A stretch of 31,469 bases of DNA from a virus. Under the pieces are notes generated by a model. That model ran no database searches, had not been told where the DNA came from, and was given only the letters and a program-made list of their open reading frames with translations. A program made the translations under genes and the position numbers. The stretch lies in the IMG/VR virus record IMGVR_UViG_3300036852_000056, positions 1-31,469 of that record, one strand, 5' to 3'. Shown here piece by piece: positions 9,404 through 30,960 of the stretch. The stretch's first letter is position 1. Every line of letters begins with the position of its first letter.

Positions 9404-9608
9404 GGATCACCCCCAATTCGTGGAGCGCCCACACGATCACCACAACTTCGAGGAAGGCGACCGAGAGCAGGATGTTCAGGAGCCGTACTGGCGGGATGCG
9501 AGTATCGACCGGACTCTGCGGGAGCGCCCTGATGGTTCGAGGGGTGCGATTGCGCCGTCGTCCAATGGAGTCCAGGACGACAAGCTCAGACGGGTGGCGC
9601 TTGCTCAT
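9396..9608 (-). CDS. Small single-span membrane protein, 70 aa
   Basis: The N-terminal 40 residues are basic (RRRNRTPRTIRALP) and the C-terminus is one hydrophobic helix (LLNILLSVAFLEVVVIVWAL, residues about 43-64). This arrangement predicts a cytoplasmic basic domain and one membrane span. It could be a superinfection-exclusion or holin-like factor, but nothing specific points to either. It starts at 9608 in an ATGA overlap. Confidence 0.6.
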   Translation of the reverse strand: MSKRHPSELVVLDSIGRRRNRTPRTIRALPQSPVDTRIPPVRLLNILLSVAFLEVVVIVWALHELGVIHV

Positions 9609-10215: not shown

Positions 10216-10292
10216 GCGGGCACGCTTTCGCGGAGACGAGCGAGGGCGGCCAATGCCTTATCGTGCTTGGCGATCCAGAAGGCGCGGGTCAT
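10212..10292 (-). CDS. Micro-gene, 26 aa
   Basis: The ATG at 10292 shares one base with the upstream stop (TGATG), and the TGA overlaps the next ATG (ATGA). The peptide begins MTRAFWIAKHDKALAALARL and looks like an amphipathic basic helix. It is the most convincing of the micro-genes, because both junctions and the GC-rich third positions fit. Function unknown. Confidence 0.45.
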   Translation of the reverse strand: MTRAFWIAKHDKALAALARLRESVPA

Positions 10293-10498
10293 CACAGGAC
10301 CAGCCCTGAGATGTGGCGCACATCATGGCGGTACATCGAACAAGAAGGGTCGAAGCCGTCTGCCTCCCGACGAACGACCGCGACCTTCTCGTTGGCCCAC
10401 GCCCAGTGCATCGGCTCGCAAATCAGGATGTCGCCCTTCTGGAGTCCGAAGTCAGGATCATCAATAAGTAGCTCGTAACGGGGTGGTCCCTGGCTCAT
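10292..10498 (-). CDS. Small hypothetical protein, 68 aa
   Basis: It begins MSQGPPRYELLIDDPDFGLQ, with KGDILICEPMHWAWANEKVA and VVRREADGF following. The pattern GDILICEPMxWAW...KVAVVRRE suggests a small beta-barrel (SH3- or KOW-like) fold, but this is a guess from strand alternation. It overlaps both neighbours. No family recognised. Confidence 0.6.
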   Translation of the reverse strand: MSQGPPRYELLIDDPDFGLQKGDILICEPMHWAWANEKVAVVRREADGFDPSCSMYRHDVRHISGLVL

Positions 10499-10683
10499 GC
10501 CGCTCCCCCATCGCCATCCGGCACCCAGGCGCCGAGTCGATAGAGGCTCTTGACCGGCAGGTTGCGCTCAGCCAGTCGCTTGGCGAACGGGCTCATCTTC
10601 TCGGTGATGGGAACCGGACAGACAGGACCGACGCGCTTCTGTCGGCGCTCGACAATCCTGGTCAAGAGTGGGGTGGTGCCCAT
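10495..10683 (-). CDS. Small basic hypothetical protein, 62 aa
   Basis: The start is set at the ATG at 10683, which has the SD AGGAGA about ten bases upstream. A longer frame begins at 10725 but would start within a hairpin and without SD. The protein is basic at the N-terminus (LLTRIVERRQKRVGP) and then reads MSPFAKRLAERNLPVKSLYR. No family recognised. Confidence 0.55.
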   Translation of the reverse strand: MGTTPLLTRIVERRQKRVGPVCPVPITEKMSPFAKRLAERNLPVKSLYRLGAWVPDGDGGAA

Positions 10684-10703
10684 GGTGTACGCTTCTCCTG
10701 TCT

Positions 10704-10744
10704 GAGCCGGTGCCTCTGCCTTCACGGGAGAGGGGCGCCGGCTC
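10704..10744 (-). other. Hairpin in early leader, after the Fis-like gene
   Basis: GAGCCGG at 10704-10710 pairs with CCGGCTC at 10738-10744, and the stem continues after a mismatch and a bulge to TCT/AGA around an 11-base loop. No T-tract follows on the transcribed strand, so it is not a standard terminator. It lies in the only real gap of the early operon and could slow polymerase or protect the message. Confidence 0.4.
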
Positions 10745-10747
10745 TGG

Positions 10748-10921
10748 CTATGCGGCCTTGACGGTTCGCTCGGTGATGACTTCGATGCCGTAGCGCTGCA
10801 TTGAGCGGTAGACCGTTGACGGCGTCACTTCGAGCGCGACCGCCGCCTTGATGAGATCGCCGTCAGTCGCTTTGAGAGCGGCGATGATCTCGTCCTTGGT
10901 GTACTTGGGCTGGCGGCTCAT
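10748..10921 (-). CDS. Fis-type HTH protein, first gene of the early operon, 57 aa
   Basis: The sequence reads MSRQPKYTKDEIIAALKATD, then GDLIKAAVALEVTPSTVYRS, MQRYGIEVI and a basic tail. The KAAxALxVTPSTVYRxMxRYGI pattern is that of the Fis/HTH_8 DNA-binding helices. The ATG at 10921 is preceded by GAGGACGA. As the first gene behind the leftward promoter and opposite the repressor gene, it holds the place of a Cro-like or early activator protein. The 57-residue size leaves room for little more than the HTH. Confidence 0.7.
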   Translation of the reverse strand: MSRQPKYTKDEIIAALKATDGDLIKAAVALEVTPSTVYRSMQRYGIEVITERTVKAA

Positions 10922-10950
10922 TCGTCCTCGATTCCCGTCATGTGCTCTGC

Positions 10951-10980
10951 ATTGTGCGCCTAACGCTATGGACCTGTCAA
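10951..10980 (-). promoter_or_regulatory. Leftward early promoter (sigma-70 type)
   Basis: On the minus strand a perfect -35 box TTGACA (10980-10975) is followed after 18 bases by CACAAT (10956-10951), four of six matches to TATAAT. Transcription would start near 10944, about 23 bases before the ATG at 10921. It is the best promoter seen in the window and would drive the whole early operon. Confidence 0.65.
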
Positions 10981-10997
10981 GCGAATAGGGCTATGCA
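10969..10997 (+). promoter_or_regulatory. Rightward promoter for the repressor gene
   Basis: TGGACC (10969-10974; four of six) and TATGCA (10992-10997; three of six) are 17 bases apart. Initiation about seven bases after the -10 box falls on the GTG start at 11004. The -35 boxes of this promoter and of the leftward promoter are directly adjacent, so one bound repressor could cover both. Confidence 0.4.
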
Positions 10998-11003
10998 GAT
11001 TGC

Positions 11004-11528
11004 GTGAAACGCGATAAGGTGGTGCGTCTAGGCACCACGAAGGACGAGGACGTGATCGGCGCAGACCGCAATGCGGTCATTCAGGCAATCCGAGCGGCAC
11101 GCACCCGAGCAAGGCTGACACAGGAAGCGGCAGCAGCTCTAACGCACCACGCCACGTCCACGATCAGCCGATGGGAAACCGGCGGGCTCCCCAACAAGTG
11201 GGACGATCTCATTGAGTACGCCCACGCTATGAACCAGCAGATCGTCCTAGAGTTCGGGCCATCGCCGGACGCAACGAAAGAACCCCCGCCCGAATGGGCA
11301 GGGGTACTGATGGCGCGAGACGAGCTGGCAGCCTACGTCGATCAAGCCAAGGATGAAGTGCTCAATGCCATCGATGCTGGGCGTAATGATCTGATCGACG
11401 CGATCGCCCAACGGGTGGCGGAACTAGCCGCGCAGAAGCTTGACCGAGAGAATGACGAAGAAGGGCACGACGGAAACCCGGATCGGCTGCCAGGGTCGCA
11501 GGAACCGCCGCCAGCCCCAGAGCCATGA
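11004..11528 (+). CDS. XRE-family repressor-like protein, 174 aa
   Basis: Residues about 24-75 form an HTH_3 domain: AIRAARTRARLTQEAAAALT, HHATSTISRWETGGLP, then a helix ending VLEFG. Residues 95-145 are a helical, probably dimerising, segment (DELAAYVDQAKDEVLNAIDA), and the tail is acidic and proline-rich. No S24 peptidase domain is present, so control would not be by RecA-linked self-cleavage. The GTG start has no SD and coincides with the predicted transcription start, suggesting a leaderless message. Its position, divergent from the early operon, makes it the probable immunity repressor. Confidence 0.65.
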   Translation: MKRDKVVRLGTTKDEDVIGADRNAVIQAIRAARTRARLTQEAAAALTHHATSTISRWETGGLPNKWDDLIEYAHAMNQQIVLEFGPSPDATKEPPPEWAGVLMARDELAAYVDQAKDEVLNAIDAGRNDLIDAIAQRVAELAAQKLDRENDEEGHDGNPDRLPGSQEPPPAPEP

Positions 11529-11654
11529 TGCGTTCGGCCAAGTGAAGGATGGCAATGTCGATGACAGCCAAGAGCAGCATCCCCTTCTACCCCAAGAGTA
11601 CGGCCCGACGTGACACCTAGTCGGTCGTTATCCACAGCCGGTCAAGGAATAGTG

Positions 11655-12440
11655 GTGACGCGAGTCGCCATCAATTGGCGCACCATCGCGTTGGTTCTCG
11701 TCGGAGTGCCGAGCATCATCGTGTCGGCGGTCCTGATCTCGCTGCTATTCCTTGATGGAGAGTCCTTCGACTGGTGGACGTTCGAGATCGCAGCCTCGCG
11801 GAGTCCCGCCACGATCTACGAATGGGGCCTCCCCTCACCCTACGCCGGCGAACCGTACAGCTACCGCTACGGGCCGCTGTTTGCGTACCTGATGACGCCC
11901 ATCACCGCGCTCGGTTTGTGGGTGTGGCGGCTGCTCCACCTCGCCGCCCTGCTGCTACTTCCCCGCCGGCTAGCCCTCATCACGCTGGTGTTCGCGCCGT
12001 TCTGGTATGACGTGCTCAACGCCAACGTGATGACCTTCGTGTTCGTGGCCGCGTGGTTCGCCATTCAGGGCAATCGCTGGGGCACGCTGGCCTTCTTCGC
12101 CCTGCTCGTGATGGTCCCCCGACCCTTAATGCTCCCTATCGCGGCGTGGATCGTCTGGCAGCGCCCTGAATGGAGACTACCGGCAGCGGGCTTCGCGGTG
12201 ATAGGACTTCTGACGCTGGCGTGGCCAGGATTCCTCCCGGCTCTCGTCAACAGCGGAGAGCTCGCTGCGATCAGCGACAAGCTGTGGGAGCCGGGACTGT
12301 GGTGGTTCGCTATCGGGCTCCCGCTGGCAGGATGGTTGACGTGGAAGGGGCGGGTCGGACTGGCCTCTCTGGCGGTGAGTCCCTACATCCTGCCCCACTA
12401 CTTCCTGATGCTGCTGCTAGAGCTTAGGAATAACCGGTGA
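11655..12440 (+). CDS. Polytopic membrane protein resembling GT-C glycosyltransferases (GT87/DUF2029-like), 261 aa
   Basis: About seven or eight hydrophobic segments span the protein, beginning TIALVLVGVPSIIVSAVLIS. Between the first two is a loop with FDWWTFEIAASRSPATIYEW and SYRYGPLFAYLM; this YxYRYxPLFAYL motif is typical of GT87-type polyprenyl-phosphate-mannose transferases, and acidic residues in the first loop fit GT-C enzymes. The protein is shorter than most family members. The GTG at 11655 has an SD (AAGGA); a GTG at 11610 in the same frame is possible. Expressed with the repressor, it may alter host surface glycans in lysogens. A plain exclusion protein is the alternative. Confidence 0.6.
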   Translation: MTRVAINWRTIALVLVGVPSIIVSAVLISLLFLDGESFDWWTFEIAASRSPATIYEWGLPSPYAGEPYSYRYGPLFAYLMTPITALGLWVWRLLHLAALLLLPRRLALITLVFAPFWYDVLNANVMTFVFVAAWFAIQGNRWGTLAFFALLVMVPRPLMLPIAAWIVWQRPEWRLPAAGFAVIGLLTLAWPGFLPALVNSGELAAISDKLWEPGLWWFAIGLPLAGWLTWKGRVGLASLAVSPYILPHYFLMLLLELRNNR

Positions 12441-12538
12441 GAGAGGTTACCCAGTGGGAGTGGGCGCTGCTAGTTGCGCTGGCGGTCATCGCCATTCTGT
12501 GGGCGGCAATGCAGCCACCACTACCCTACTACCCGTAA
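12437..12538 (+). CDS. Small single-span membrane peptide, 33 aa
   Basis: A GTG at 12437 overlaps the stop of the glycosyltransferase-like gene (GTGA). The peptide is VREVTQWEWALLVALAVIAI followed by LWAAMQPPLPYYP: one membrane helix and a proline/tyrosine tail. The coupled translation suggests it works with the upstream membrane protein. Its last ten bases overlap, tail to tail, the end of the PhoD-like gene on the other strand. Confidence 0.55.
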   Translation: MREVTQWEWALLVALAVIAILWAAMQPPLPYYP

Positions 12539-13827
12539 ACCTTCGACAGACTGAACACCTCCGTCTCGGTGGCGCCGGGACTGACTGACAGCGCCCAACC
12601 TTTGGCAACAGCGGTGATCTGCGTCCCCGTATCAGTGAACGCGATGGTCCCGTACATCTGCTTGCGAGTCTGATATGGGCCGTGGGTGAAGGTGCCGCCA
12701 ACATTGGTGAACGCCGCATCCAACGGCGCGAACTGGACGTAGGGCGGGCCATCCGTCACGGCACCGGGGTCAAACTGGGTATTCGTACCATCGTCACCCG
12801 CCAGTTCATGGATATCCGCCCCGAGCAGGAGCAAGCGGGAGGTCAGGTCATTGTCCTCGAAATATTCGGCCAGCTCCTGGCGCTCGGTGCTGAACGACTC
12901 CCAACCATCAGTGAAGCCAACCGTGGTACCCCACCATGACCCGATCTCTAGGACGATGCAGGGCTCGGTGGCTGCAAGCAATGTGTCCTTGAGCCATTGT
13001 TTCTGCGTGGCCCCGAGACGTGTCTTGGCGGCGTCATCGGTCGCAGTGTTGGCGGTCCGTTCGGAGCGGATGTCGAGCAGGATGAACCGCACCCGACCGA
13101 TGACGAAGGTCTGGTAGATCGACGCCGCTGGGACGGTCCAGTGCGGCACATAGTCACGGTACGCCTGCTGCGCTGCCGCCTTGCCGGTGTACGTCCCGTC
13201 CGAGTCGTTGGGGCCGTAGTCGTGGTCATCCCACACGTAGGCGGTCGGACACTCGCGGATGAGTTGCGCAAAGCGAGCGTTGGCAATCACGTCCTTGTAC
13301 GCCGTCCGATACGTCGCCACGTTGGTTGTATTGAGGTTGCGGTAATGCAGATCTCCCAGGTGGATGAACAACAGCGGGTCGCGGTCACGGATGCGGTCGA
13401 AGGCAGGGGTGTTCGAGGTCTCAGCCGCGCCCGGATAGTCTGGAGCGTTGCCGCTGTCACCACTGGCGGCGATGGTGAACGAGGCGGCTCCGCTGGGAAA
13501 GGTTCGCAGCTTCCCCGTCAAGTCTGCTCCGGCGAAGCCGAAGTAATACTGAGTGTTGGCTGTCAGCCCCGACAGAGTGCAAGTCCACACGTCATCAGAG
13601 CCTTCACTGCCCGCCGCAGTCGAATAGCCAGCCAGTCCCGGGTCGGTCGAGTAGCGCAGCGTCACCGATGTCGCGTCGGTGCTGCGGGCCTTGACCGTGG
13701 CTCCCGTGGTGGAGACGTTGCCGACCCAGGCGTGGATGACGGTGATGGGGTCGGGTTCCGGCTCTGGCTCCACGTCAAGGCCGGTGCCACCACCCCCACG
13801 GGTCTGCACGCGGCGTGCGAAGGTCAC
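12529..13827 (-). CDS. PhoD-like metallophosphoesterase with fibronectin-like N-terminal domain, tail-associated, 432 aa
   Basis: After an acidic proline-rich stretch (EPEPEPDP), residues 27-110 form a purple-phosphatase/FN3-like domain (VIHAWVGNVSTTGATVKARS). The catalytic domain has GDSG (D124), HLGDLHY (D159, H161), the PhoD hallmark WDDHDYG (199-205) and LLLGADIHE (D338, H340). All main metal-ligand positions appear present. PhoD enzymes are Ca/Fe phosphodiesterases that degrade teichoic acids and other phosphoesters. No secretion signal is visible. The gene is the last of the tail module and overlaps the LamG gene (GTGA), so the product is probably on the virion and may cleave a surface polymer during adsorption. 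Confidence 0.8.
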   Translation of the reverse strand: MTFARRVQTRGGGGTGLDVEPEPEPDPITVIHAWVGNVSTTGATVKARSTDATSVTLRYSTDPGLAGYSTAAGSEGSDDVWTCTLSGLTANTQYYFGFAGADLTGKLRTFPSGAASFTIAASGDSGNAPDYPGAAETSNTPAFDRIRDRDPLLFIHLGDLHYRNLNTTNVATYRTAYKDVIANARFAQLIRECPTAYVWDDHDYGPNDSDGTYTGKAAAQQAYRDYVPHWTVPAASIYQTFVIGRVRFILLDIRSERTANTATDDAAKTRLGATQKQWLKDTLLAATEPCIVLEIGSWWGTTVGFTDGWESFSTERQELAEYFEDNDLTSRLLLLGADIHELAGDDGTNTQFDPGAVTDGPPYVQFAPLDAAFTNVGGTFTHGPYQTRKQMYGTIAFTDTGTQITAVAKGWALSVSPGATETEVFSLSKVYG

Positions 13828-14516
13828 ATCGACGCCTTCCCGGCACGATATAAATCAGCGGCCTCAGCCTCAGTCAGGACGCGATTCCAAACGGCCCAGT
13901 GCGCCATGAGCCCATCGAAGTCGAGATTGGTGCCGGCCGAATTGAGTCCGAACTTCGGATCGGTCGCTGCCGCCACGAAGGTTTGGTCGGCTGTGGTTCC
14001 CCCGCCGGGGTCGGACACACCATCGACATAGCACTTCGTCGTGGTGCCCGTCTTGGTGAAGATGACATGGTGCCAGCCCTTGGTATAGGGCGAGCCCCAG
14101 TCCGTCGTGGCCGTGGCGAACACGTCACCCGTCCCGGCCTTGCGCAGAACAAGACGGCCGGCATTCGTTCCGGCCGGGAACCATGGCCCGAAGTCCCCGA
14201 CTCCGAAGTGGCATAGCACCGGCCCACCGCTGGCATCGTCGCCTTGCCCCGTGCGGTTGAACCAGCCGCCCACGCTGAGCGTGTTGCCGGGGTGGTACGA
14301 AGTGTGAGTCGGCACAACGACAGCAGCGTCGTTGTTAGCGAACTTCAACGAGCCCGAGCCGATGAAGGGCCCTGCACCGAATACCGTATTAGGTCTGGTA
14401 ACCGCGATGCCACGCACCAGCTCGCGTTGTCCGTCGCCCTGCATCGAGACATACAGAACGGGGCGCGTAGCGAGCACAACGTCGCTGTACTCCCGCCGTG
14501 GCCGACCGAGATCCAT
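13824..14516 (-). CDS. LamG/concanavalin-like lectin-domain tail protein, 230 aa
   Basis: Residues about 45-225 fit a LamG-type jelly roll: GSGSLKFANNDAAVVV, TLSVGGWFNRTG, then TKGWHHVIFTKTGTTTKCYV with DGVSDPGG, and AHWAVWNRVLTEAEAADLY at the end, which is the typical closing strand and helix. Such domains bind glycans and are common in tail-tip and fibre proteins. It lies between an unknown tail protein and the PhoD-like enzyme, with one-base and four-base overlaps, so the three probably form an adsorption apparatus. Confidence 0.75.
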   Translation of the reverse strand: MDLGRPRREYSDVVLATRPVLYVSMQGDGQRELVRGIAVTRPNTVFGAGPFIGSGSLKFANNDAAVVVPTHTSYHPGNTLSVGGWFNRTGQGDDASGGPVLCHFGVGDFGPWFPAGTNAGRLVLRKAGTGDVFATATTDWGSPYTKGWHHVIFTKTGTTTKCYVDGVSDPGGGTTADQTFVAAATDPKFGLNSAGTNLDFDGLMAHWAVWNRVLTEAEAADLYRAGKASM

Positions 14517-15124
14517 CAGTGCTGCCGGATGTGCAGGATGACGGTGATGTCAGAAGTTCCGATCAGCGTCACCACAGAGCGCGTGACGAGCTGGCCGAAC
14601 AGCGAGGTACCCGCCAGCTTGGCGGAGAGGCCGACGCCGAACCGCGTAGCCGCCGAGTTGTCGGCGAAGTCAGCCCACGTCGTGAACGGGATGACCCCGA
14701 CCAGGTTGAGGATGTCTGTATCGGACACGTCCAGGGCCGCGTTATCCGTCCCGGCCGTGAAGGTCTGGTCGAATAGCAGTAGGTCCAAAGAAGGCATGGT
14801 CGCCGACAGATCAGTGACCACTCCCCCTTCGATGGTGATAGCTCCGCCGGATGCTCGCGCCGAGTTGGCGAAGGTCAGCAGCCCGCCCATGCAGTCCTTG
14901 GCGGCGTAGGCCGAAGTCGAGACAGTCGGCGTCTGGGAAACACGCACGATCTTGCCGCCGACAGGCAAGAGCGCAGCGGGCACTGCCGCAGTGCCATCCA
15001 CGAGACTCTCGGTCCCGGCTGATCCGAGATCGAGCATCATCGCTGGCGTCTTGATACCTGCGCGATCCTTCGTGCGGATGGTGTCGCCACCAGAGCCTAG
15101 GTTCGTAATGGTGTTGTCGGCCAT
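14516..15124 (-). CDS. Putative tail-tip/accessory structural protein, 202 aa
   Basis: The protein begins MADNTITNLGSGGDTIRTKD and is rich in beta-forming residues, with a conserved-looking end (GQLVTRSVVTLIGTSDITVI). Proteins of this kind, with GGAITIEG and LLLFDQTFT motifs, recur in the tail modules of many phages, but the role is not known to me. The ATG at 15124 follows TAGGAG, in which the upstream stop codon forms part of the SD. Confidence 0.6.
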   Translation of the reverse strand: MADNTITNLGSGGDTIRTKDRAGIKTPAMMLDLGSAGTESLVDGTAAVPAALLPVGGKIVRVSQTPTVSTSAYAAKDCMGGLLTFANSARASGGAITIEGGVVTDLSATMPSLDLLLFDQTFTAGTDNAALDVSDTDILNLVGVIPFTTWADFADNSAATRFGVGLSAKLAGTSLFGQLVTRSVVTLIGTSDITVILHIRQH

Positions 15125-15134: not shown

Positions 15135-18002
15135 CTAGAGATTCGTGCTGAGGGCTAGGACTGGGAAGGTTCCGCCGCCCGCAGCAGCGGCCGGTGTGTA
15201 AGCGCCGTAGTGGTGGCCGAACCAGTTGGTCCCACCATCGAGGGTGACGAGCTTGACGACGTTCACGTCAAGCCCCGTCGTGGCAAGGGTCGGCGCCACA
15301 CCGCTTGGCCATTTGACCGACGACGGCCATGACACGAGGCGCGAGCCGGTGGCGTCCTGACGGAGGTACAGCATTACGCTGTTCTGTACGCCGCTGACGG
15401 GAGCGGTCAGGGTCAGCGTCACCGTTGCTGCGTCGAGTGTCAGATCGTGGGCATTACCGTTGGCCAGGTCTACCGTCTCAGTCGCCCCGGTGTTACCGTG
15501 GACCTGGCGCGTCTCTCCGCCGCCACCGACCACAGTCGTGTACGCGGAGTGGTCGTCGTCGGCCAGCCCGGTCAAGCCACCGTGATCGGATACGACCGCT
15601 GCACCTGCACTGCCGATCCAGTTCGTTCCCCCATCAAGGGTGAACAGCACGATGACATCGAAGGCCGCTGCTGCCGTCTGGAGGGTCGGGGCGGCTCCAC
15701 CGATCCACGTGACTGAACCGGGCCATGTGACAAGTCTTGAGCCGGTCCCATCCTGGCGCAGCAGGACCGTGATGGCACACGCCACACCCGCCGTGGCGCC
15801 GGTCAGAGTGATGGTGCAGTTGGCTGTCAACGTCACGTCGTGGACATTGCCGGTCACGAGGTCCAAGGTTTCGGTAGACCCCGACGCGGCGACGGTGTTG
15901 ATGACTTCCTTGCCGCCGAGGGTGGTGCGGACGAAGCCTCCCCCACCGACGTTAATGGGCCCGAGCTCTTGGAGCTGCGCTTCGACATTCGTGCCGGTGT
16001 AATACCCACCCGCGTCAGCGGCGGTCACATCCTCGGCCATGTGGTACGGGCCGCCTACCACGATATCGCCATGCTCGTGGACGTGTGACGGTCCTACGAA
16101 CGTTCCATCGTTGGTACCTACCGTCCCCGTTCCGGTCGCACCTACTGGCTGCGTCGCGGCCCCCGAGCCTTGTACCGCGATACCGATGCCCAACCAAAGA
16201 CGGGCGCCACCAAATGTCCAGCCCGGTGTCGAGTCACCGTGACCGCCAGCATGTTCAATCGAGGAGTCGTTGGCTGCATAGCACTGCGTCTGACCAGCCA
16301 CCACGACGGGAGTGGCGTTGACAAGCGGTTCGTTGATACCGAAACCGTTGATGTAGAAAGCGCCCGATGACTCAGCAATGGTCAACTCACCACTGGCGTC
16401 AATGCCCTCCGCAGTGACGATCGAGCCGAACGGGTCGGACGAATCAACGTTCTTGAAAAGCCAGAAGCCTTTCCAGCCGGTGTTGCTACTCAATGCACCA
16501 CTACCAGCCGTGGGATTGAGCAGGTAGAACGCTTGCATGGCGGATCGCCAGCCCAGCGGGTTAGCAATCGAGTGGATGATCCCGGTGCCAGGCACCGATG
16601 TCATGACCTGAGGCGTCCCGCCGACCGTCCACGTCGCTGAGAACGGTGTGTCCAGATTCGACTTGTTGAGCATGCAGACCAGCATCGAGTTCGTCAGCCC
16701 CGAGGGGATGACGATGGTGTGGTCCCCATGGCCTGCGGTCCCCCGGCCACATTCGACAAGCTCCGCGCTGCCACCGCCGGCGGGCTTGGGTCCCACCGGC
16801 AAACCTACCCGCTCAGGCAAGACCTTTTGCGGGCGGTCGAGCATGAGATGCAGGTTGTAGAACCCGTCCACCGCCCCTACGTTCGGAGCGATGGGTTCCT
16901 TCTTGCACTGAGCGATCCTGCGCGTCTGGACCGTCCCGAGATATTGGCCCGCCATCGCAGCCGCGGCGCGAATCTCGATCGACATGCCCGCTTCGACAAG
17001 ATGGACCTCATCGGCCCGAACTTGGATCGTGACCTGATGGGTGACGTGCTCCCGACCGCGATATCTACGGGTCGAGTCGGCGCGACGCTGCGCCTGCGTG
17101 GCATTGACGCTGGTCGAGTCGTTGAACGTCTCAGCCCAGTAATCGTAGGCGGTGATGATCGTGGCGTCAGTGGAGACCACAAAGGAGTCATCACCCGACC
17201 CGTGGCGGGAGATGAGGGTGCTGATCGGATTCTCGCCACCCATCTCGACCGTGGCATCGCCCTGCTCCCACTGGGGTGGGTATTGGGTCGTCAGGTTGGG
17301 CGAGGTGTCGGTGATCCGATAGGTGGACAGGTAAGTGGTGTGGTCGTCCTCATCGATGTACAGGTAGCACAGGTGCGACCCGCCCGAGTGATGAAGAACG
17401 ACACCGCCGATCTTGCCCTCGACGGCGGCGCAGTCCTCAAGGATCTCACCCAGCGGCGCACCGGCCAGGTACTTCTTGGCGGGCATGGTGACTTCGCCGC
17501 CAGCCGCCACGAGGTGAGTAGCGATGACCGTCGTCAGGCGCGGCGAGCCATTGCAGAACGCGGCCAGCGCAGCGAGGGTGCGGGTTCGGCCCGTCTCCGA
17601 GGGACGGTCCCAGTGAGCAGTGAGGTTCAGCCCCTTGAGATCGATATTGCCGTCATCGACCCTGACGCTGGCCGCGCGTGAGTCGCCCCATGGCTTGTCG
17701 CCGCGACCCCAGCCCTTGTCGGCGATCCGTCCGCGGGCGGTCCAGTACTCAGTTCCTGATGCGTCCTCGCTGACGGTAACCACGTTGTGCGAGGCCAGGT
17801 TCTTGGTCAGATCAACGCGCGGAATCTCGCCTACATCATCGTCCACCTCGAACTCGAACTGGCTCGCCGCGCCATTGTCATAGCGGTGCGACGCCGTAAG
17901 CAGAGGCTCGGAGTCGTCGCCGAATACCCTCACCTGTGACGTGGCGTTCCACGTCGTTGACCCCACGTCCCCGCCGATGCGGACCGTGACCTTGATCGCC
18001 AC
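15135..18002 (-). CDS. Large tail-tip protein with duplicated C-terminal domains, 955 aa
   Basis: The start is the GTG at 18002, sharing one base with the tape-measure stop. Residues 1-400 have the look of distal-tail/tail-associated baseplate proteins (FEFEVDDDVGEIPRVDLTKN, later a domain with ILEDCAAVEGKIGG). A Gly-rich middle follows, then HVHEHGDIVVGG and GGYYTGTNVEAQLQEL, a linker motif common in fibres. The C-terminus holds two related domains of about 100 residues, each with TET(L/V)DL.NGN.HD(V/L)TL, LRQD.(T)GSRLV.WP and TLDGGTNW. It probably contains the host-contact end of the tail. Confidence 0.7.
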   Translation of the reverse strand: MAIKVTVRIGGDVGSTTWNATSQVRVFGDDSEPLLTASHRYDNGAASQFEFEVDDDVGEIPRVDLTKNLASHNVVTVSEDASGTEYWTARGRIADKGWGRGDKPWGDSRAASVRVDDGNIDLKGLNLTAHWDRPSETGRTRTLAALAAFCNGSPRLTTVIATHLVAAGGEVTMPAKKYLAGAPLGEILEDCAAVEGKIGGVVLHHSGGSHLCYLYIDEDDHTTYLSTYRITDTSPNLTTQYPPQWEQGDATVEMGGENPISTLISRHGSGDDSFVVSTDATIITAYDYWAETFNDSTSVNATQAQRRADSTRRYRGREHVTHQVTIQVRADEVHLVEAGMSIEIRAAAAMAGQYLGTVQTRRIAQCKKEPIAPNVGAVDGFYNLHLMLDRPQKVLPERVGLPVGPKPAGGGSAELVECGRGTAGHGDHTIVIPSGLTNSMLVCMLNKSNLDTPFSATWTVGGTPQVMTSVPGTGIIHSIANPLGWRSAMQAFYLLNPTAGSGALSSNTGWKGFWLFKNVDSSDPFGSIVTAEGIDASGELTIAESSGAFYINGFGINEPLVNATPVVVAGQTQCYAANDSSIEHAGGHGDSTPGWTFGGARLWLGIGIAVQGSGAATQPVGATGTGTVGTNDGTFVGPSHVHEHGDIVVGGPYHMAEDVTAADAGGYYTGTNVEAQLQELGPINVGGGGFVRTTLGGKEVINTVAASGSTETLDLVTGNVHDVTLTANCTITLTGATAGVACAITVLLRQDGTGSRLVTWPGSVTWIGGAAPTLQTAAAAFDVIVLFTLDGGTNWIGSAGAAVVSDHGGLTGLADDDHSAYTTVVGGGGETRQVHGNTGATETVDLANGNAHDLTLDAATVTLTLTAPVSGVQNSVMLYLRQDATGSRLVSWPSSVKWPSGVAPTLATTGLDVNVVKLVTLDGGTNWFGHHYGAYTPAAAAGGGTFPVLALSTNL
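15200..15920 (-). repeat. Tandem duplication encoding two C-terminal fibre domains
   Basis: Two blocks of about 310 bases (roughly 15600-15920 and 15200-15520 in coding order) encode related domains sharing GSRLV.WP and TLDGGTNW. Identity is clear in the protein but only patchy in the DNA, so the duplication is old and has diverged, as expected under selection for receptor range. Confidence 0.65.
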
Positions 18003-19687
18003 TAGATCGGCACGGTGAGGCCGGCCATCGGCGTTCCAGCGCGCACCGAGCTGGTCACGATACGCTGCCACTCATTGATGCTGATCTGGTTGGTGATCAT
18101 GGCCTGGATGATCGGAGAGAATGTGGTGCGCTTGGCGAGGATGCCGCGCTGCACGCCGACCGACTCACGCGTCACGCCCTCGATGCGGGCCAGGTTGCCG
18201 GCAGCGACGGCGGCTCGTGACTCAGCGCGGGCGCTGGCCTGCTGAGCGGCTGAGAGATTGCGCTGCGCCCACGGGATAGCATCACGAGCAGCGTTGGCAC
18301 CACGCTCCGCGGCTGCCGCGACGCGCTGCGCCTCAGGATCACGGACCGAGACCGGACCTGACATCACCTCATTGATGAGCTCCTGGATCGGATCGCCCAG
18401 TGCTCGACCGATCAGGCCGCCTACACCCTGCGAGAGCATGCCCCGCATGACGCCTTCTTCGGTGCCGGTGCGAATGTCCTCCAGCGCCAGAAGGCCGCCG
18501 CCGATAACGGCTGCCGCTCCAGCCGTCCCGACTGCACCTGCCACCATGCCGCCACCGCGGCCTGCTACTCCCGGCACTCCCCCGCCCGCTCCCGTGACCG
18601 TGGCAGCGTTGATGTTCACCACCCCGGCGTTCATGCCGAGCACGCCCTTGATAAGCCCCGAACCGAGCGCCCCGACGATAGACCCCAATGCCCCACCAGT
18701 CAGTTTGTTGAGGCCCCAGCCGGTGAGGATGGCGGTCTGCAACCACGGCGGGGCTCCGAGGAAGGCGTCCATCGCCATGCGTGCGCCAGTGCCGGCCGTC
18801 TGGAGGGCAGCGCCCACCTGCGCCCATGGGATGTCCTCGGCGAAGTCCAGCGCCGACTCGAAGGCACCGGCCATGGCGCCGCCGAAGTCCTCGATGCCTT
18901 GGATGAATGCAGGGTCGGCGGCCAGCTCCTGCATCTTGTCGGACGCCCGCTCGATCAACGGCAGGAAGCCGGTGGCGAGGTGCATCTGCATGTCCTCGAT
19001 GGCATCGCCCCACCGACGCTGCGCTCCACCTGCACCCTCGCCCAATGCTGCTGCCGAGCCGCCGAGCTGCGTTTCCAGCTCGGCGAGGATGAGCGTCTGT
19101 GCCCCGGCCAGGTCGTTCGCCTCGACCATGGCCTTGATCTGATCCTGCTGCGCCTCGGTGAATGAGATGCCTGCCCGGCGCAAAGCAGTGATGCCGCGCA
19201 CCGGATCTTCGAGCGCCTTGCCGACTTGCAGGATGGCGCCGTTGAGGTCGCCGCCCATGCGGGTCGAGAGATTGAGCGCCGCCTCCATGGCGGGCTCGAA
19301 CGCATCCTCGCGCACGTTGCGGAAAGTGAGCAGGACGTTGGCGCCTGACTGGATGAGCTTGTCGTCAATCGTGGTCTGGCGCTCGAACGCCTCGGACATG
19401 GCGCGGATCTCGTCCGCCGTCAGCCCTGCCGCACCACCTGTAGATTCAATCGCCGCGCGGGTCTGGGCCTGTGCTTCCTCCAGCTCGACCAGCGAATTGA
19501 TGCCAGCGTGAACCTGGACGGCCAGCCCTGCCCCGACCGCGGCGACAGCAAGACCGACGTTGCGCCCGACGTTAGAGCTTGCCCGCCGCGCGGCGCCCTC
19601 GACACCTTCTACGTCGCCGCGGACACCACGAAGCACACCGCCCGCCATGTTGCGAGCGGTGACGAGGATTTGAAGCTCACGAGCCAT
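18002..19687 (-). CDS. Tape-measure protein, 561 aa
   Basis: It directly follows the frameshifted chaperone pair and has the expected composition: a long N-terminal helical region (LVELEEAQAQTRAAIESTGG), tape-measure motifs such as GVLLTF-like NVLLTFRNVREDAFEPAMEA and LAGAQTLILAELETQLGGSA, and Gly/Ala-rich hydrophobic segments (MVAGAVGTAGAAAVIGGGLL). At about 1.5 angstrom per residue it predicts a rather short tail of about 80-85 nm. The start at 19687 has SD GAGGA and overlaps the chaperone end by 11 bases. Confidence 0.85.
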   Translation of the reverse strand: MARELQILVTARNMAGGVLRGVRGDVEGVEGAARRASSNVGRNVGLAVAAVGAGLAVQVHAGINSLVELEEAQAQTRAAIESTGGAAGLTADEIRAMSEAFERQTTIDDKLIQSGANVLLTFRNVREDAFEPAMEAALNLSTRMGGDLNGAILQVGKALEDPVRGITALRRAGISFTEAQQDQIKAMVEANDLAGAQTLILAELETQLGGSAAALGEGAGGAQRRWGDAIEDMQMHLATGFLPLIERASDKMQELAADPAFIQGIEDFGGAMAGAFESALDFAEDIPWAQVGAALQTAGTGARMAMDAFLGAPPWLQTAILTGWGLNKLTGGALGSIVGALGSGLIKGVLGMNAGVVNINAATVTGAGGGVPGVAGRGGGMVAGAVGTAGAAAVIGGGLLALEDIRTGTEEGVMRGMLSQGVGGLIGRALGDPIQELINEVMSGPVSVRDPEAQRVAAAAERGANAARDAIPWAQRNLSAAQQASARAESRAAVAAGNLARIEGVTRESVGVQRGILAKRTTFSPIIQAMITNQISINEWQRIVTSSVRAGTPMAGLTVPI

Positions 19688-22359: not shown

Positions 22360-22820
22360 CAGACGGCTACCGTCACGGTGTCCTCGGTCCACACCCTAGC
22401 CACGAAATGCCAAGCGTGGTACTCCGTCCCGGCGTAGGTGTACGAGTCGAAGTCGTAGTCACTAGTGACGACGGCCTTCATCACCACCGGAGCAAGGCCG
22501 AGCTTCATCTGCCCCTGCAAGGCTCCGCGCATGACCGGCCACCACAAGTAGATCCTATGTAGGTCCACCGGCTGATCGCCCGACGCCTTGTTGAGCAACA
22601 GGTACACATCGAAGTCGTGCTGATCCTTGATGCGCGCAGACGGGAAGCCCTCGGGCATCCCGAGCTCCCCCGAAGGCGGAGTGACGATGACGTAAGGCGT
22701 ATCGGGGATGTTGTTGGGCAGCCGTGCCGTGGCGCCTGCGAGCGTGTAGCCGGTAGGCGGAGTGGCCGCCGCGAAGCGTGCCGCGATCGCATCGGCGATG
22801 GCCAGCAGATCGGTCGCCAT
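22359..22820 (-). CDS. Head-tail joining or tail-terminator-like protein, 153 aa
   Basis: The N-terminal helix LLAIADAIAARFAAATPPTG and the strands YVIVTPPSGEL, HDFDVYLLLNKAS and YHAWHFVARVW resemble small alpha/beta tail-terminator and stopper proteins. It follows the connector, as such genes do. Exact class (stopper or terminator) cannot be decided from the sequence. Confidence 0.6.
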   Translation of the reverse strand: MATDLLAIADAIAARFAAATPPTGYTLAGATARLPNNIPDTPYVIVTPPSGELGMPEGFPSARIKDQHDFDVYLLLNKASGDQPVDLHRIYLWWPVMRGALQGQMKLGLAPVVMKAVVTSDYDFDSYTYAGTEYHAWHFVARVWTEDTVTVAV

Positions 22821-23434
22821 CAGGCCACCAGGGCTGAGCGGTAGCGGTCCAGCGTGTGCTTGAACTCGGGCGCCACGATCTTGGTCACGATCGGTGCGCC
22901 CGTCTCATCGGAGCCAACGATGTCGGTCATGCCCGACTGCCGCCCGTGCCACGCACGCGTAGCGATGTTGAGGGCGACCGCTCTTACGTCGTCAGGCACC
23001 GCCGCGAATCCGGCGGTCATCGTGACCTTGATGGTCCCGTAGCCACGGTAGAAATAGGTTCCCGTATTGAGGACGATCTGCGTGGCCGGCTCACCATTGA
23101 GCAGATTGAGCGGGCGCAGGAAGTATTCGGTGCTGGCCACGGTCGTGAAGGCGCCGCCTGTGGTAGTCGCGGTCTCCAGCAACGTCACAGCCCGCACGCC
23201 GAGCCGGAACAGGTCCAGCGTAGAACGGTCAGGGTTGTCCGGTCCCCCGCCGTCGAAGGTGTACACCGCCGACGCCACCGGACCCATGACCCGCCCGGTG
23301 TACGCCTCGACCCATTGGTTCGTCTCATCCACGATCTCGGTCAGGATCGCGTCACGGGTGGCATCAACCGAGGTGTTACCGGTCCGCGCCTTGAGTTGAG
23401 CGAGCGTGACGTAGACGCCGAGGGCGGTGGCCAT
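22820..23434 (-). CDS. Head-tail connector (gp6/gp15-like adaptor), 204 aa
   Basis: The beginning YVTLAQLKARTGNTSVDATR and ILTEIVDETNQWVEAYTGR is the helical start of adaptor proteins that sit under the portal. A beta-rich insertion (TVASTEYFLRPLNLLNGEPA) and the C-terminal helix DDVRAVALNIATRAWHGRQS complete the family pattern. It is preceded by TAGGAGCACCC. Confidence 0.75.
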   Translation of the reverse strand: MATALGVYVTLAQLKARTGNTSVDATRDAILTEIVDETNQWVEAYTGRVMGPVASAVYTFDGGGPDNPDRSTLDLFRLGVRAVTLLETATTTGGAFTTVASTEYFLRPLNLLNGEPATQIVLNTGTYFYRGYGTIKVTMTAGFAAVPDDVRAVALNIATRAWHGRQSGMTDIVGSDETGAPIVTKIVAPEFKHTLDRYRSALVA

Positions 23435-25589: not shown

Positions 25590-28067
25590 CTAGGTCAGGT
25601 AGCGCAGCGTGCGACCGGCATCCACGTTGATGGGCGCCGCGTGATTGCGGTACATGAAGTACAGCGCCTGCTGGCCGGTGGCCAGGGCAGACGAGTTGAG
25701 GATGAACGGGATGAACTGCACGCTCATGCCCACCCGCTCCACGATCACGTAGGACTGCGGAGCGAGCAATGTCCCGATCACGATGTTGGCCGTCTGCGCT
25801 GTCGGCAGCGAAGGCGACTCGTTGACGGGATAGCCCAGCAGCCGAAGGCCAGTGTTGCCCGCGCGATCGAGCTCGGGAATCCCGACAGACTGGTACTGCT
25901 GGCCACCGAACAGCTTGCCGCCCGTCGTCTCCAGCGTCTGGAAACGACGGATGGACTGGCGATTCAGGAACCACTGCGCACCGAAGCGATGCCGTACCGG
26001 CAACGCCGCCTCGACTGCATCCGCATCGGCCGCTGCGAGGGTAACCGACGTGGCCGTGGTGATCGAGGTATAGGCACCCGTGGTGCCGTTGACGGGACCG
26101 ACGCCAATAGACGCGGTGCCCGCACCGGCACCAGTGGCCCACGAAGTCTCTTCCTCGTTATCCTTGGCCTCCTGAATAAGGACGGCCATCTCGGACGCGA
26201 GGTCGGTGCGGTCCTGGAACATTTCGAAGCTAGCCGTGATCTGGCCCTGTGCCCGCTTCACGATGTACTGCGGCTGAGCGAAGGTCGGCCCCTGCTCAAT
26301 GGCGGCCGCAGCCTCAGTGGTGCGGGTCGCCACGACCGCCGTGGCGGTCAGCGCGTTCCACGTATCGGTGCCGACGATGTTCACGACGCGGCAGGCGCGC
26401 CGGTACGGGTTGACCGCACCGGACCATGCACCGATGGCGATGACGGTCGGGTCGAAGGCGAACGGGACGGTAAACCCGCCTGTCGCATCCACGCCCACCG
26501 CCAGCGCCGTACCGCGCTGCTCCTCGGGGGTCAGGCCGATGGTGCTGCCCTTGGCCTTGATGATCTTCTCGAACGCACGCAGGTAGACGGGCGATCCGGT
26601 GTACTTGATGCGCCGCGCGAGTTCCCCATCGGGACTGTCGTGATGATCGAGCAGATCGGCGATCTTGTCCCGGCTGCGCGCCTCGTCGGCGAGCCCGTAG
26701 GGGAACGATGCCTTCTCGGTGATGCGCATGGCGTCGTCGCGGAATTCGACCACGCGACCCTCAAACGAGGTCGCTCGTGACTCCGGGCTGTGCAGCTCGG
26801 ACTCGGACTTGCGGTTGATCTGGTTGACGGTCTTCGTGGGCTCGAACACGCGCTCGACCTTGGCCGGATCGGCCGCGCGCTCGATGAGCACCGCCTGGCG
26901 CGACTCCCACGCCTCGAGGTCCTTGCCAAGCTTGTCGCGCTCGTCAACGTCGGCGTTCCAATGCACCTGCTCCTCGTCAGGCAGGATGCCCGGATAAGCC
27001 GACGCCTGGCGCGCGAGCGCCTCATTGAGTTCATCGAAACGAGCCCGCTTGTCTTCGATGGTCGTAAGGGGTTCCACTGGTTCACTCCTTGAATCAGAAG
27101 GCCCGCTCTCAAGCGGACTCTCGGGGACTGGCGCCGGTTCGTCCGGCGGCGGTTCGATCCGCGGAGTGTCCGGCTGCGACGGCTCCTCGATGGGAGTGTC
27201 GTCCGGCGGCTCGTCGGATGGGGGTGCGGCTTCGGTATCGACCGAAGTGCGGGCGACTTGTGCTGATCGCAGCAGCGCCTCGAACTGCTCGGGGTCGCGG
27301 CTGCGCTGATAGAAGGTATCGGTAGTCGAGCGGGCTCCGACCGTGGCCTTGGGATTGGCCGGGAAGGTAACCGGGCCGAACTCATAGACCCGCGCCTCGG
27401 TGATGGTCCGCTCGGGTAGGCCCTCGGGGTTGTGATCCGAACGCTCGGGACTGTGGTCCCACACGTCCTTCTCGACGGTGAAGCGGAAGGATGAACCATA
27501 GGCCCCTGCCATCAGGCCCGGTGCGAGGTCGCGGTTGTAGGACGTGTCGAACAGCGGCACGATATAGGCCGGACCGATGTTATCGGAGCGCAACTCCTCG
27601 ATACGGCCTAGCACCTTGTTGCCGATCTGCGGGTCCTGGCCGTGGTCATACAGGACCTTCATCTGGTCGCGGCTCTCGCGCATCGTTTTCTGGAAGGCGC
27701 GCGGGCTCACGCTCTCTAGGAAGTGACCTTCGAGGAACGAATCGACCTCGTACCAATCCCCATAGGTCGAGAAGTGGCCCACCATCGTCGGCATTTCACC
27801 ATCACTGGCACGGGCCTCGACGGCTGAAGCCACGGCACGAGTAACAGGGAACGGCAAGCGGGCAGGTGGAACCGTAGCCAAGTCTTCAGGTCTCAGGTGT
27901 CCAGCCATAGAGTTCACTCCTGGTTCGTTGGCGTACAAAGCGGCGAGCTGTTTCTGGGCAGCAGCCTTAGTGGCATGGCAACCAGCTACCGATGAATCAC
28001 TGTCCTTGATGACAGCGAAAGGCTTAGAGTCAGAGCATTCCTTGGATGAGCCGATATGCCAGGGCAT
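25590..28067 (-). CDS. Fused prohead protease and HK97-fold major capsid protein, 825 aa
   Basis: Residues 1-50 are a small Trp/Cys domain (CSDSKPFAVIKDSDSSVAGC, then QKQLAALYANEPG). Residues 90-245 are an S78-type prohead protease, with H142 in LYDHG and S192 in AYGSSFRF as the probable catalytic pair. A proline- and acid-rich linker (275-335) leads into a coiled coil like the capsid delta domain (340-400). Residues about 500-825 are an HK97-fold capsid protein (GVDATGGFTVPFAF, ITASFEMFQDRTDLASEMAV, GYPVNESPSLP). The start follows GGAGG with five-base spacing. A second start at 27908, with AGGAG, would remove the first domain. Cleavage probably frees mature capsid protein. Confidence 0.85.
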   Translation of the reverse strand: MPWHIGSSKECSDSKPFAVIKDSDSSVAGCHATKAAAQKQLAALYANEPGVNSMAGHLRPEDLATVPPARLPFPVTRAVASAVEARASDGEMPTMVGHFSTYGDWYEVDSFLEGHFLESVSPRAFQKTMRESRDQMKVLYDHGQDPQIGNKVLGRIEELRSDNIGPAYIVPLFDTSYNRDLAPGLMAGAYGSSFRFTVEKDVWDHSPERSDHNPEGLPERTITEARVYEFGPVTFPANPKATVGARSTTDTFYQRSRDPEQFEALLRSAQVARTSVDTEAAPPSDEPPDDTPIEEPSQPDTPRIEPPPDEPAPVPESPLESGPSDSRSEPVEPLTTIEDKRARFDELNEALARQASAYPGILPDEEQVHWNADVDERDKLGKDLEAWESRQAVLIERAADPAKVERVFEPTKTVNQINRKSESELHSPESRATSFEGRVVEFRDDAMRITEKASFPYGLADEARSRDKIADLLDHHDSPDGELARRIKYTGSPVYLRAFEKIIKAKGSTIGLTPEEQRGTALAVGVDATGGFTVPFAFDPTVIAIGAWSGAVNPYRRACRVVNIVGTDTWNALTATAVVATRTTEAAAAIEQGPTFAQPQYIVKRAQGQITASFEMFQDRTDLASEMAVLIQEAKDNEEETSWATGAGAGTASIGVGPVNGTTGAYTSITTATSVTLAAADADAVEAALPVRHRFGAQWFLNRQSIRRFQTLETTGGKLFGGQQYQSVGIPELDRAGNTGLRLLGYPVNESPSLPTAQTANIVIGTLLAPQSYVIVERVGMSVQFIPFILNSSALATGQQALYFMYRNHAAPINVDAGRTLRYLT

Positions 28068-29456
28068 TCACGCCTCCACCGGCATCGTTGGTTTGCCATT
28101 GCTGGGCGCGGGTTCAGTCATGGAACCAGGAGGCTGGAGCTGGACCGATACCAGACCAGTCCACTTGAGCAGGCTCATGTCTTCGGCGTTCACCGCCTTG
28201 ATTACCGAGGGCGGGTCGTATCCGCCGTCCGTTAGGGCGCGAATGGTCTGCGCCTTGATCTGCTGAATCTCGGCAGCGTCCTTACGGTCCTCACGCAAGA
28301 ATGGGATGGCACTGGCATCGACCCACAACTGCGAGCCGGGCGGCGGCTTGATAAGCGTCTCCATCGAGCCGCAGAAGTTGCCCCATAGCCACCACAGCGT
28401 CTTATCGGCGACAAGGCGCCGGGCCGCACCGAAGTTGCCCGCATTGAGGCTCGCGCCCTGCAACCCCTCGGATAGTCCGGCGATGGCCGGATGGATGCCA
28501 CCGGCCGCCGCCATGCGCGTCTCGCCCGCTCCCTGGGTAGCCTTGAACTCCAACTGCTGGAGATCCTTGCCAACCACGGTGACATCTGCGCCCGCGGTGA
28601 GATACAAGGTGCGGTAGGCGTTAGCGACTCCGGTATGACCGGTGTCAATGATCTTGCGCCACTCATCGAACTGCGCCTTGGTCGGAGCATCGGGACGCTT
28701 GACGACCATCTGCGGCGTGGCGCCACTCTCGAAGAACTTGAGTTTATGCGTGGTGGCCGCCGAATCGCCCATGATCTCGCGCACAATGGGCGTGATCCAG
28801 CTCATACCACGCACGTGGGCTTCTGGATCAGGAATGGGGGCAAAGTGAGCAATCTGGCTGCGTTGCAGATATTCGGGCGGATTACCGCTGTGTTCTCCAC
28901 CGGGATAAAAGATGACGCCCAGGAATTCGGCATTGAGGTCATCGGATGACACATCGGGATCGTCGGTCCCGAATACCATCGTCACCCATCCCGGATGCAG
29001 CCGCTTGATCTGGTCGAGGCCGCGAATCCTGCGACGGGTGGCGTAGAAGTTGCCGGCGATGTCGGCGTCGGTAATGGCACGCGCCAACAGATCGCCGGTT
29101 GTGGCGTTGGCCCACGGGTGTTGCAGAATGTCGAGGTTCGGGTCGCCAAACAGGTGACCATCAGCAAAGCCCCGATACCGGAAGCGAGCCTGCGAGAACA
29201 ATGCCAGCCGATCACGCATGATCGAAAAAACGATGCTGTTGCCCTTATAGGCCCGCTGCACGTAGCTCGTGAAGTTGGACTCGATCTCCTCCTCGCGCGA
29301 ACCAGGCGTGGTGAGTTTGAGGTTGTCGAGCGGATACGTCTGACCGTCGAAGTTGATATACGGCCAGAAGTTATCGACGCCCGGCAGCCACGCAGGGATC
29401 ACCGTCGAACGCGACGGCCCGATCATCCATTCAGTGAAGCGTTCAATCAGCCCCAT
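28068..29456 (-). CDS. Portal protein (HK97 type), 462 aa
   Basis: The middle has portal-family features: SNFTSYVQRAYKGNSIVFSI, LDILQHPWANATTGDLLARA, and the AHFAPIPDPEAHVRGMSWIT segment followed by KFFESGATPQMVVKRPDAPT, which is the FFxNGAxPxGxL-type motif. The start is set at the ATG at 29456, overlapping the terminase end by ten bases; a start 11 codons earlier lies deeper inside terminase. The portal forms the dodecameric DNA channel of the head. Confidence 0.9.
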   Translation of the reverse strand: MGLIERFTEWMIGPSRSTVIPAWLPGVDNFWPYINFDGQTYPLDNLKLTTPGSREEEIESNFTSYVQRAYKGNSIVFSIMRDRLALFSQARFRYRGFADGHLFGDPNLDILQHPWANATTGDLLARAITDADIAGNFYATRRRIRGLDQIKRLHPGWVTMVFGTDDPDVSSDDLNAEFLGVIFYPGGEHSGNPPEYLQRSQIAHFAPIPDPEAHVRGMSWITPIVREIMGDSAATTHKLKFFESGATPQMVVKRPDAPTKAQFDEWRKIIDTGHTGVANAYRTLYLTAGADVTVVGKDLQQLEFKATQGAGETRMAAAGGIHPAIAGLSEGLQGASLNAGNFGAARRLVADKTLWWLWGNFCGSMETLIKPPPGSQLWVDASAIPFLREDRKDAAEIQQIKAQTIRALTDGGYDPPSVIKAVNAEDMSLLKWTGLVSVQLQPPGSMTEPAPSNGKPTMPVEA

Positions 29457-30928
29457 GCGGCCAAAACCTCTTGAGGTGGAGCAGTCCACAGCGCCCGGTC
29501 TACCGCGAGGGCCAACGCGATCACTCCGTCGATCCGTCCGCGACTCTTCGACTTCTGGAGCGTGAAGCCGCGCTCGTTGAATCTCGGCACGGCATTGAGA
29601 ACATGGGTGGCCAGAACCTCGTCACCATCATGCCTGAGCTCACCACGCTTGATGAGTTCCAGCAACGAGCCACAGATGGGCGTCATACGCTCCGGTGACT
29701 GCGGGACTTCCTCCATCGGCTGGCCCTCGTCGGCCAGCATCTTGGCCGGCACATCGAAGAAGCGGTTGTCGAAGCTCACCGCCTGGAGGTCGTAGGCGCG
29801 TGACAGTTCGCGGATGTGCTCCATCACGTCGGTGACATCGACCGGCTCACCCGGAGTAGGGAGCCAGAAGCGGGCGGTGGCCCTGAGCATCCCGGTCTCG
29901 TCACGCTGCACGGCCACGACGGCGGTCGAGTCACGCTTGAGCCCCACGTCCACGCCGACCCATGTCGGAGCGCCGGCTACGAAGTCATACGGGTCGGCCA
30001 ACGCGTCCCACGTCGGGCGTCCGTTGGGCCCGAGCCAGGAGTCCACGCCCTCGTAGTGCTGGCCCAGCCGGAAGATGCGGAAATGTCCTTCGGGTGTGAT
30101 GCCCAGATCCGTCTCCAAGGCTGACTCTCTGAGAAAGCCAGCCTTGATAGCGAAGTTGGCCACCCGCCACGCCGCCCGATCATCGACCTTGCAGTCATCG
30201 GGAGCGGCGTATTCGCGGAAGTACAGACCCGGCAGCTCGGCCCCTTCCTTGATCTTGGTGCGGAGATGGGTCAAGGCGTTGTCGCGGTCCAGTCCTGGTG
30301 TCCCCACACCGATGGCGAGAGAGCGTGCGCGCTTGCCCGACCCCATACGAAGGGAATCCCACGACTCGATTGGTTGGAATCCGATCTCGTCCACGATGGC
30401 CAGGGAATAGTCCAGCCCTTGAAGCCCATCGGTGTCGTTGGAGATCGGGAACATCTCGCCTTCGTTGAAGGGGACGACGATGCGTGGGGTGGCGATACCG
30501 GTGTAGATGAGTGCTCGGCTCAGTAGCTCTGGCTCAGCCTTGACCATCGACACGCCCACGCCATAGCACGAGCGGATGGCCTGCCCCACGGTGGTGGCTA
30601 CGACGGGTACCTGTGGTGATCCCGTCTCGTCATCATCGAAGGTGGCCCAGTCGGCCAGCGCACCGCCGAAGGTTGATTTGCCGTTGCCTCGCGGTGTGCC
30701 GAATACGGCTAGGTCGATGCCATCGGCCAGAGCTTCTTCCAGAAACTCCTTCTGCTCCATCGCCAGCTTGAGCGGCTTGCCGTGGCCCTGACCCTTCGGA
30801 GCTCGGCAGTAGGCCTCGATGAAGCGGATGGCCCTGCCCCAACGGGATAGGTTCTTAGGCCACGACTTCCATGGGCCAGGAGAGGTATCAGCGACTCGTT
30901 TGGTAGCGTAGCCGTAGGTTCTAGGCAT
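29447..30928 (-). CDS. terL: Terminase large subunit, 493 aa
   Basis: A Walker A-like GTPRGNGKST lies near residues 77-86 and Walker B with catalytic Glu (YSLAIVDEIGFQ) near 175-184, followed by the coupling motif RSLAIGVGTPG. The nuclease half has VGVDVGLKRDSTAVVAV, FDNRF and GRIDGVIALALAV, giving the three acidic positions of the RNase H-like fold. The enzyme cuts and pumps DNA into the prohead. The ATG at 30928 is preferred; a GTG two codons upstream is possible. No small subunit is recognised beside it, as the genes upstream run in the other direction. Confidence 0.9.
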   Translation of the reverse strand: MPRTYGYATKRVADTSPGPWKSWPKNLSRWGRAIRFIEAYCRAPKGQGHGKPLKLAMEQKEFLEEALADGIDLAVFGTPRGNGKSTFGGALADWATFDDDETGSPQVPVVATTVGQAIRSCYGVGVSMVKAEPELLSRALIYTGIATPRIVVPFNEGEMFPISNDTDGLQGLDYSLAIVDEIGFQPIESWDSLRMGSGKRARSLAIGVGTPGLDRDNALTHLRTKIKEGAELPGLYFREYAAPDDCKVDDRAAWRVANFAIKAGFLRESALETDLGITPEGHFRIFRLGQHYEGVDSWLGPNGRPTWDALADPYDFVAGAPTWVGVDVGLKRDSTAVVAVQRDETGMLRATARFWLPTPGEPVDVTDVMEHIRELSRAYDLQAVSFDNRFFDVPAKMLADEGQPMEEVPQSPERMTPICGSLLELIKRGELRHDGDEVLATHVLNAVPRFNERGFTLQKSKSRGRIDGVIALALAVDRALWTAPPQEVLAAWG

Positions 30929-30932
30929 GTTC

Positions 30933-30960
30933 ACCGTGCACCGTGTATCGTGTACCGCAT
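30933..30960. repeat. Four 7-bp tandem repeats at a divergent start
   Basis: ACCGTGC, ACCGTGT, ATCGTGT and ACCGCAT follow without gaps, the last being degenerate. They fill the space between the terminase start (30928 or 30934) and the start of the ribbon-helix-helix gene (30959). Such proteins bind short repeats, so this is a candidate operator that could silence both genes. Confidence 0.5.

Follow-up and report, generated by a model that had tools for sequence, protein, structure and literature searches.

A PhoD-family phosphoesterase encoded at the end of a phage tail operon, a candidate entry enzyme for phosphate-bearing host-surface polymers

Among the closest described systems is PhoD of Bacillus subtilis (2YEQ), an exported host enzyme that uses a cysteine to ligate Fe and carries a C-terminal capping helix. 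The PhoD family also includes the phospholipase D of Streptomyces chromofuscus, and both Cys and Asp have been reported at the Fe-ligand position of its cellular members (PMC4223295). In a soil survey, 23 phage phoD genes were counted as auxiliary metabolic genes for phosphate acquisition, and one of the encoded proteins, PhoD22, was active in vitro; its authors point out that it exceeds some known bacterial PhoD proteins in length. The main text of that survey contains neither "tail" nor "virion" (PMC10987575). The extra length of PhoD22 would fit a tail fusion. For ORF22, the PhoD protein of Thermobifida phage P1312, the genome authors predicted a signal peptide and proposed superinfection prevention or teichoic-acid hydrolysis; their LC-MS/MS analysis of the virion detected 24 of 93 proteins, and ORF22 was missing from the list, as were the tail proteins ORF13, 15, 16, 18, and 21 (PMC4569894). 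A homologue in the Microbacterium phage Rowlf is annotated as function unknown (PMC12352085). A search of a limited literature collection returned no paper that places phage PhoD in virions or treats it as a receptor-binding protein.

The DNA analyzed in this work (the window) is a complete IMG/VR record of 31,469 bases. On its minus strand, a gene with a GTG start (12529..13827) encodes a PhoD-family phosphoesterase of 432 aa, as assigned from the family profile, alignment, and a structure model. The protein scores 77.9 bits with Pfam PhoD (PF09423; cut-off 27, E 1e-21), and a profile search scored PhoD at E 1e-31 versus 6e-5 for the purple acid phosphatase 1xzw. The cut-off of the cellular secreted PhoD equivalog NF058638 was not reached (20.4 bits versus 1000). 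The protein belongs to the PhoD superfamily, but not among the cellular secreted PhoD enzymes. Residues 1–27 (13747..13827, minus strand), Gly-rich and then PEPEPEP, form an N-terminal extension delimited by sequence, alignment, and model, and the AlphaFold2 model has low confidence over about residues 1–20. The extension is followed by an FN3-like beta domain at about residues 28–115 (13483..13746, minus strand; Pfam and model), the N-terminal domain usual for this superfamily, where a Pur_ac_phosph_N match at residues 31–99 (E 2e-4) lies below the family cut-off. A sequence-only reading of the window had described a complete PhoD core after this domain, and all four of its motifs, GDSG, GDLHY, WDDHDYG, and GADIHE, are present in the translation. 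GDSG is no GDSL-type motif, since residue 124, its Asp, falls in the alignment on the PhoD Fe ligand, which is Cys or Asp. A true purple acid phosphatase was rejected, the second-metal motifs GNH[DE] and GHxH of those enzymes being replaced by WDDHD and GADIHE.

The residues expected to bind the metals were located by sequence alignment with 2YEQ rather than from a metal-bound structure. On the minus strand, the codon of Asp124, at the Fe-ligand position (PMC4223295), lies at 13456..13458; those of Asp159 to Tyr162 (GDLHY), which cover the positions of the bridging Asp and the Fe-ligating Tyr, at 13342..13353; those of Asp200 to Asp208 (DDHDYGPND), the Ca-ligand loop, at 13204..13230; and those of Asp338 to His340 (GADIHE) at 12808..12816. 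Missing ligands had been named as a result that would speak against the enzyme, and the alignment instead predicts a complete Fe and two-Ca set: D124, D159, Y162, D200/D201, N207/D208, D338, and H340. Across 53 aligned viral homologues, D159, Y162, D201, H202, D203, D252, D338, and H340 are invariant, and position 124 is Cys in 30 and Asp in 23, with nothing else; the window protein has Asp. A chance match is excluded by the family scores together with the invariance of these ligand positions. The AlphaFold2 model (mean pLDDT 91.7, pTM 0.90) points to the same family: its closest solved structure is Bacillus PhoD 2YEQ (E 2e-26, TM 0.76), followed by plant purple acid phosphatases, so that the predicted fold is that of PhoD.

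The gene is the last recognizable one of a minus-strand late operon, in agreement with its earlier description as the end of the tail module. The operon starts with the terminase large subunit (29447..30934) and the portal protein (28068..29489), each assigned by family match, and continues with an 825-aa ORF in which the capsid protease and the major capsid protein are fused (25590..28067; phrog_80 and phrog_10). Connectors follow, including a head-tail adaptor (22820..23434), then the 561-aa tape measure protein (18002..19687) and a 978-aa tail protein whose C-terminal part matches tail-fibre families (15135..18071), all by family match. A 202-aa gene without an assigned family (14516..15124) and a 230-aa LamG/ConA-like lectin protein (13824..14516; PF13385, E 4e-14) precede PhoD, and all of these genes are on the minus strand. 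PhoD overlaps LamG, as the sequence-only reading had noted; the start of the one and the stop of the other share 4 bases (GTGA), and a Shine-Dalgarno-like GGGAAGG stands just 5' of the GTG start. PhoD is probably translationally coupled to LamG. A programmed -1 frameshift between the two was also considered; the frames fit, but no canonical slippery heptamer was seen by eye, and reinitiation is the simpler reading because GGGAAGG and the GTG start are present. A promoter scan around the PhoD gene found nothing. In GC and GC3 the gene agrees with its neighbours, and recent capture from a host was rejected on this ground.

Two further genes of the window are described here in their own right. 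On the plus strand, convergent with PhoD, 11610-12440 encodes a very hydrophobic 276-aa membrane protein that by eye resembles a GT-C (GT87-type) glycosyltransferase; searches of Pfam, PHROGs, and NCBIfam gave no match for it, and peptide patterns retrieved no IMG/VR relative. An ERF-type single-strand annealing protein is encoded at 6960-7991 on the minus strand.

To place the gene among its relatives, we assembled homologues from two IMG/VR scans, one prokaryote-genome scan, and annotated phages, in all 81 distinct PhoD genes from viruses and 64 from cells. For 27 of the 81 viral genes, the second or third gene upstream of PhoD encodes a tape measure; this count is a lower bound because many contigs are short, and not a probability because related phages are not independent. 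The local tape-measure search was seeded with proteins mostly identified by PHROGs, and PHROGs confirmed the calls near PhoD in selected loci. Only one cellular locus has a tape measure upstream of PhoD, and this Streptomyces sequence matches a listed viral contig. In P1312, PhoD directly follows the tape measure and a tail protein; the gene immediately before PhoD matches tail families in L027, L011, L015, and L031, all of which fall in the window's own, weakly supported tree branch; and in cyanophage YongM the PhoD gene precedes an annotated capsid fibre gene. Homologues lying always outside tail modules had been set down in advance as evidence against a tail enzyme, and the 27 loci near a tape measure, together with several fusions to tail families, show otherwise. 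Some homologues do lie outside: that of Streptomyces phage Jay2Jay is found among tRNA genes and that of Microbacterium phage A3Wally near nucleotide-metabolism genes. Because some phage PhoD genes are so placed, the tail reading is confined to this lineage and does not extend to every phage PhoD gene. It should be noted that A3Wally (L007) carries, at 9062-13366 and outside the tail module, two adjacent PhoD-family genes beside two other metallophosphoesterase genes.

Viral PhoD proteins are mostly large, with a median of 809 aa and a median C-terminal region of 312 aa; in cellular ones, little follows the domain (median 17 aa). With a simple hydropathy measure applied to the longest ORF, an N-terminal hydrophobic segment was found in 6 of 81 viral versus 38 of 64 cellular proteins. 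The fused protein of L009 has a C-terminal region matching phrog_1885, a family of minor tail proteins (5e-27), and the corresponding region in L018 matches phrog_1887, a family of tail proteins (2e-48). In L023, L029, L073, and L080, PhoD is free-standing and is directly preceded by a separate gene whose domain recurs at the C terminus of up to 16 fused proteins. In the window, too, PhoD is a free-standing protein encoded behind tail genes. The window's 978-aa, 202-aa, and LamG proteins have no homology to the C-terminal domains of the fused relatives at E 1e-4, and Pfam recognizes no C-terminal tail domain in its PhoD. In L024 and L025, a GH16 domain is fused to PhoD. Each of these two phages has two PhoD-family genes (9257-13039 and 15330-18146 in L024; 3952-7803 and 9305-12385 in L025), and GH16 is carried by the first gene of each pair.

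A tree of 132 PhoD domains shows strong clustering by viral versus cellular label. Most tape-measure-linked members fall in a 30-row all-viral clade with a support of 99; the window PhoD sits on a long branch within a viral group of modest support (81), which includes the Jay2Jay and A3Wally homologues among others. These data bear on whether the gene is an auxiliary metabolic gene, that is, whether PhoD is synthesized during infection and released so as to liberate phosphate from organic phosphoesters under scarcity. The soil-phage phoD genes have been treated in this way, with the in vitro activity of PhoD22 at hand, and the Jay2Jay and A3Wally homologues stand among non-structural genes. 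We nevertheless consider this unlikely. The sequence-only reading had noted the lack of a secretion signal, and we also see no hydrophobic N-terminal stretch in the window protein, as judged by inspection of the N-terminal sequence and a simple hydropathy test rather than a dedicated signal-peptide program; export before lysis is therefore not expected. The gene overlaps LamG at the end of a tail operon, relatives are fused to minor tail proteins, and the all-viral clade that holds most tape-measure-linked members stands apart from host PhoD. Export, a non-structural location, and host kinship, which would mark a metabolic gene, are thus not what we found, with the window's grouping with viral PhoD being weakly supported, and phosphate acquisition is doubtful for this tail lineage.

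Alternatively, PhoD could be a soluble late enzyme outside the virion, freed at lysis to act on debris, biofilm, or receptor polymer and so keep progeny from being trapped, or to block superinfection. The window protein is without a recognizable tail-attachment domain, and the P1312 homologue is absent from the virion LC-MS/MS list, its authors having proposed roles of this kind. However, other tail proteins of P1312 escaped detection too, and in relatives PhoD is covalently joined to domains of minor tail proteins, which makes a non-virion enzyme quite unlikely.

We then compared the locus with that of sister phages, taken as terminase relatives with 66–84% identity. None of the seven records, several of which are short fragments, has a PhoD match. 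In L180, whose TerL is 69% identical to that of the window, a gene homologous to the 202-aa one (41% identical) is followed by a LamG gene and then by a 625-aa protein in which a GDSL hydrolase is fused to a LamG domain (P0010, 7296-9173), a cassette like that of PhoD. The LamG proteins of the window and L180 have no BLASTP likeness and are similar at the family level only. The L180 cassette sits upstream of the terminase instead of directly behind the tape-measure and tail genes, and a small additional ORF lies in between. L187 has a pectate-lyase-like protein after or beside the tape measure. No LamG relatives of the window protein were found in the phage collection, and the near relatives by tape measure amount to one partial contig, L185. 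The idea that PhoD replaces the usual surface enzymes is supported by the GDSL esterase in a similar cassette and weakened by the different genome place of that cassette. With this difference in location, an exchange of PhoD with other surface enzymes is seen in related phages, and PhoD as a putative substitute for another surface-polymer enzyme is supported for this phage group. The same enzymes bear on the target: that a tail protein of PhoD fold acts on another phosphoester, such as membrane phospholipid, to aid membrane penetration is very unlikely, since, although the family includes a phospholipase D and some relatives infect cyanobacteria, which are not known to have teichoic acid, the ConA-like domains paired with PhoD (LamG and GH16), like the GDSL and pectate-lyase-like enzymes of the sisters, point to a glycan.

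Taken together, the family assignment, the full ligand set, the place in the late tail operon, the tail fusions of relatives, and the different enzyme in the sister cassette favor a tail-associated metallophosphodiesterase of PhoD fold that probably acts on a phosphate-bearing polymer of the host surface at entry, and genome comparison supports the tail reading. In the mechanism we propose, PhoD would be made together with the tail proteins, probably by translational coupling to LamG, and assembled into or onto the tail tip. During adsorption it would cleave phosphodiester or phosphomonoester bonds in the surface polymer, to which the adjoining ConA-like (LamG) protein may bind; the likeliest substrate would be wall teichoic acid or a sugar-phosphate glycan. 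A broader proposal, for which we see even prospects, is that PhoD-fold phosphodiesterases are a widespread unrecognized class of tail enzymes, exchangeable with glycan esterases and lyases, and that many phage phoD "metabolic" genes really encode entry enzymes. If so, the known virion phosphodiesterases (GDPD) would gain a second, unrelated fold, what soil virus ecology reads as a nutrient-acquisition gene could instead belong to the entry apparatus, and these proteins would offer enzymes for attacking phosphate-bearing surface polymers. The cultured phages P1312 and Rowlf make the tail reading directly testable.

GDPD differs from PhoD in fold and active site. Like the enzyme predicted here, GDPD is a tail-module phosphodiesterase, and in the baseplate of Lactobacillus phage Ld17 and in an enterococcal tail it is aimed at teichoic acids, its activity having been studied (PMC10194240), whereas the activity of the window PhoD is predicted from its sequence. 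The soil-phage phoD genes belong to the same enzyme family and are read there as phosphate acquisition (PMC10987575). The Microbacterium proteins annotated as "purple acid phosphatase" (Rowlf, PMC12352085; EK phages) are homologous to the window PhoD, and the Rowlf gene is flanked by the major tail gene on one side and further structural genes on the other; unlike the window protein, they carry a long fused N-terminal region. P1312 ORF22 shares with the window a PhoD domain in the tail module, but it is a protein of 1096 aa with a long C-terminal region, whereas the window protein, which matches phrog_24476 "phosphodiesterase" (E 7e-72), is free-standing at 432 aa; we rejected the signal peptide predicted in ORF22 because in the alignment this stretch falls on the conserved beginning of the FN3-like domain. 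Finally, the window PhoD shares with B. subtilis PhoD (PMC4223295) the predicted fold, the Fe and Ca ligand positions, and the N-terminal beta domain at 17% identity in the structural alignment, and it differs in having Asp at the Fe-ligand position, no export signal, and a place in a phage tail operon.
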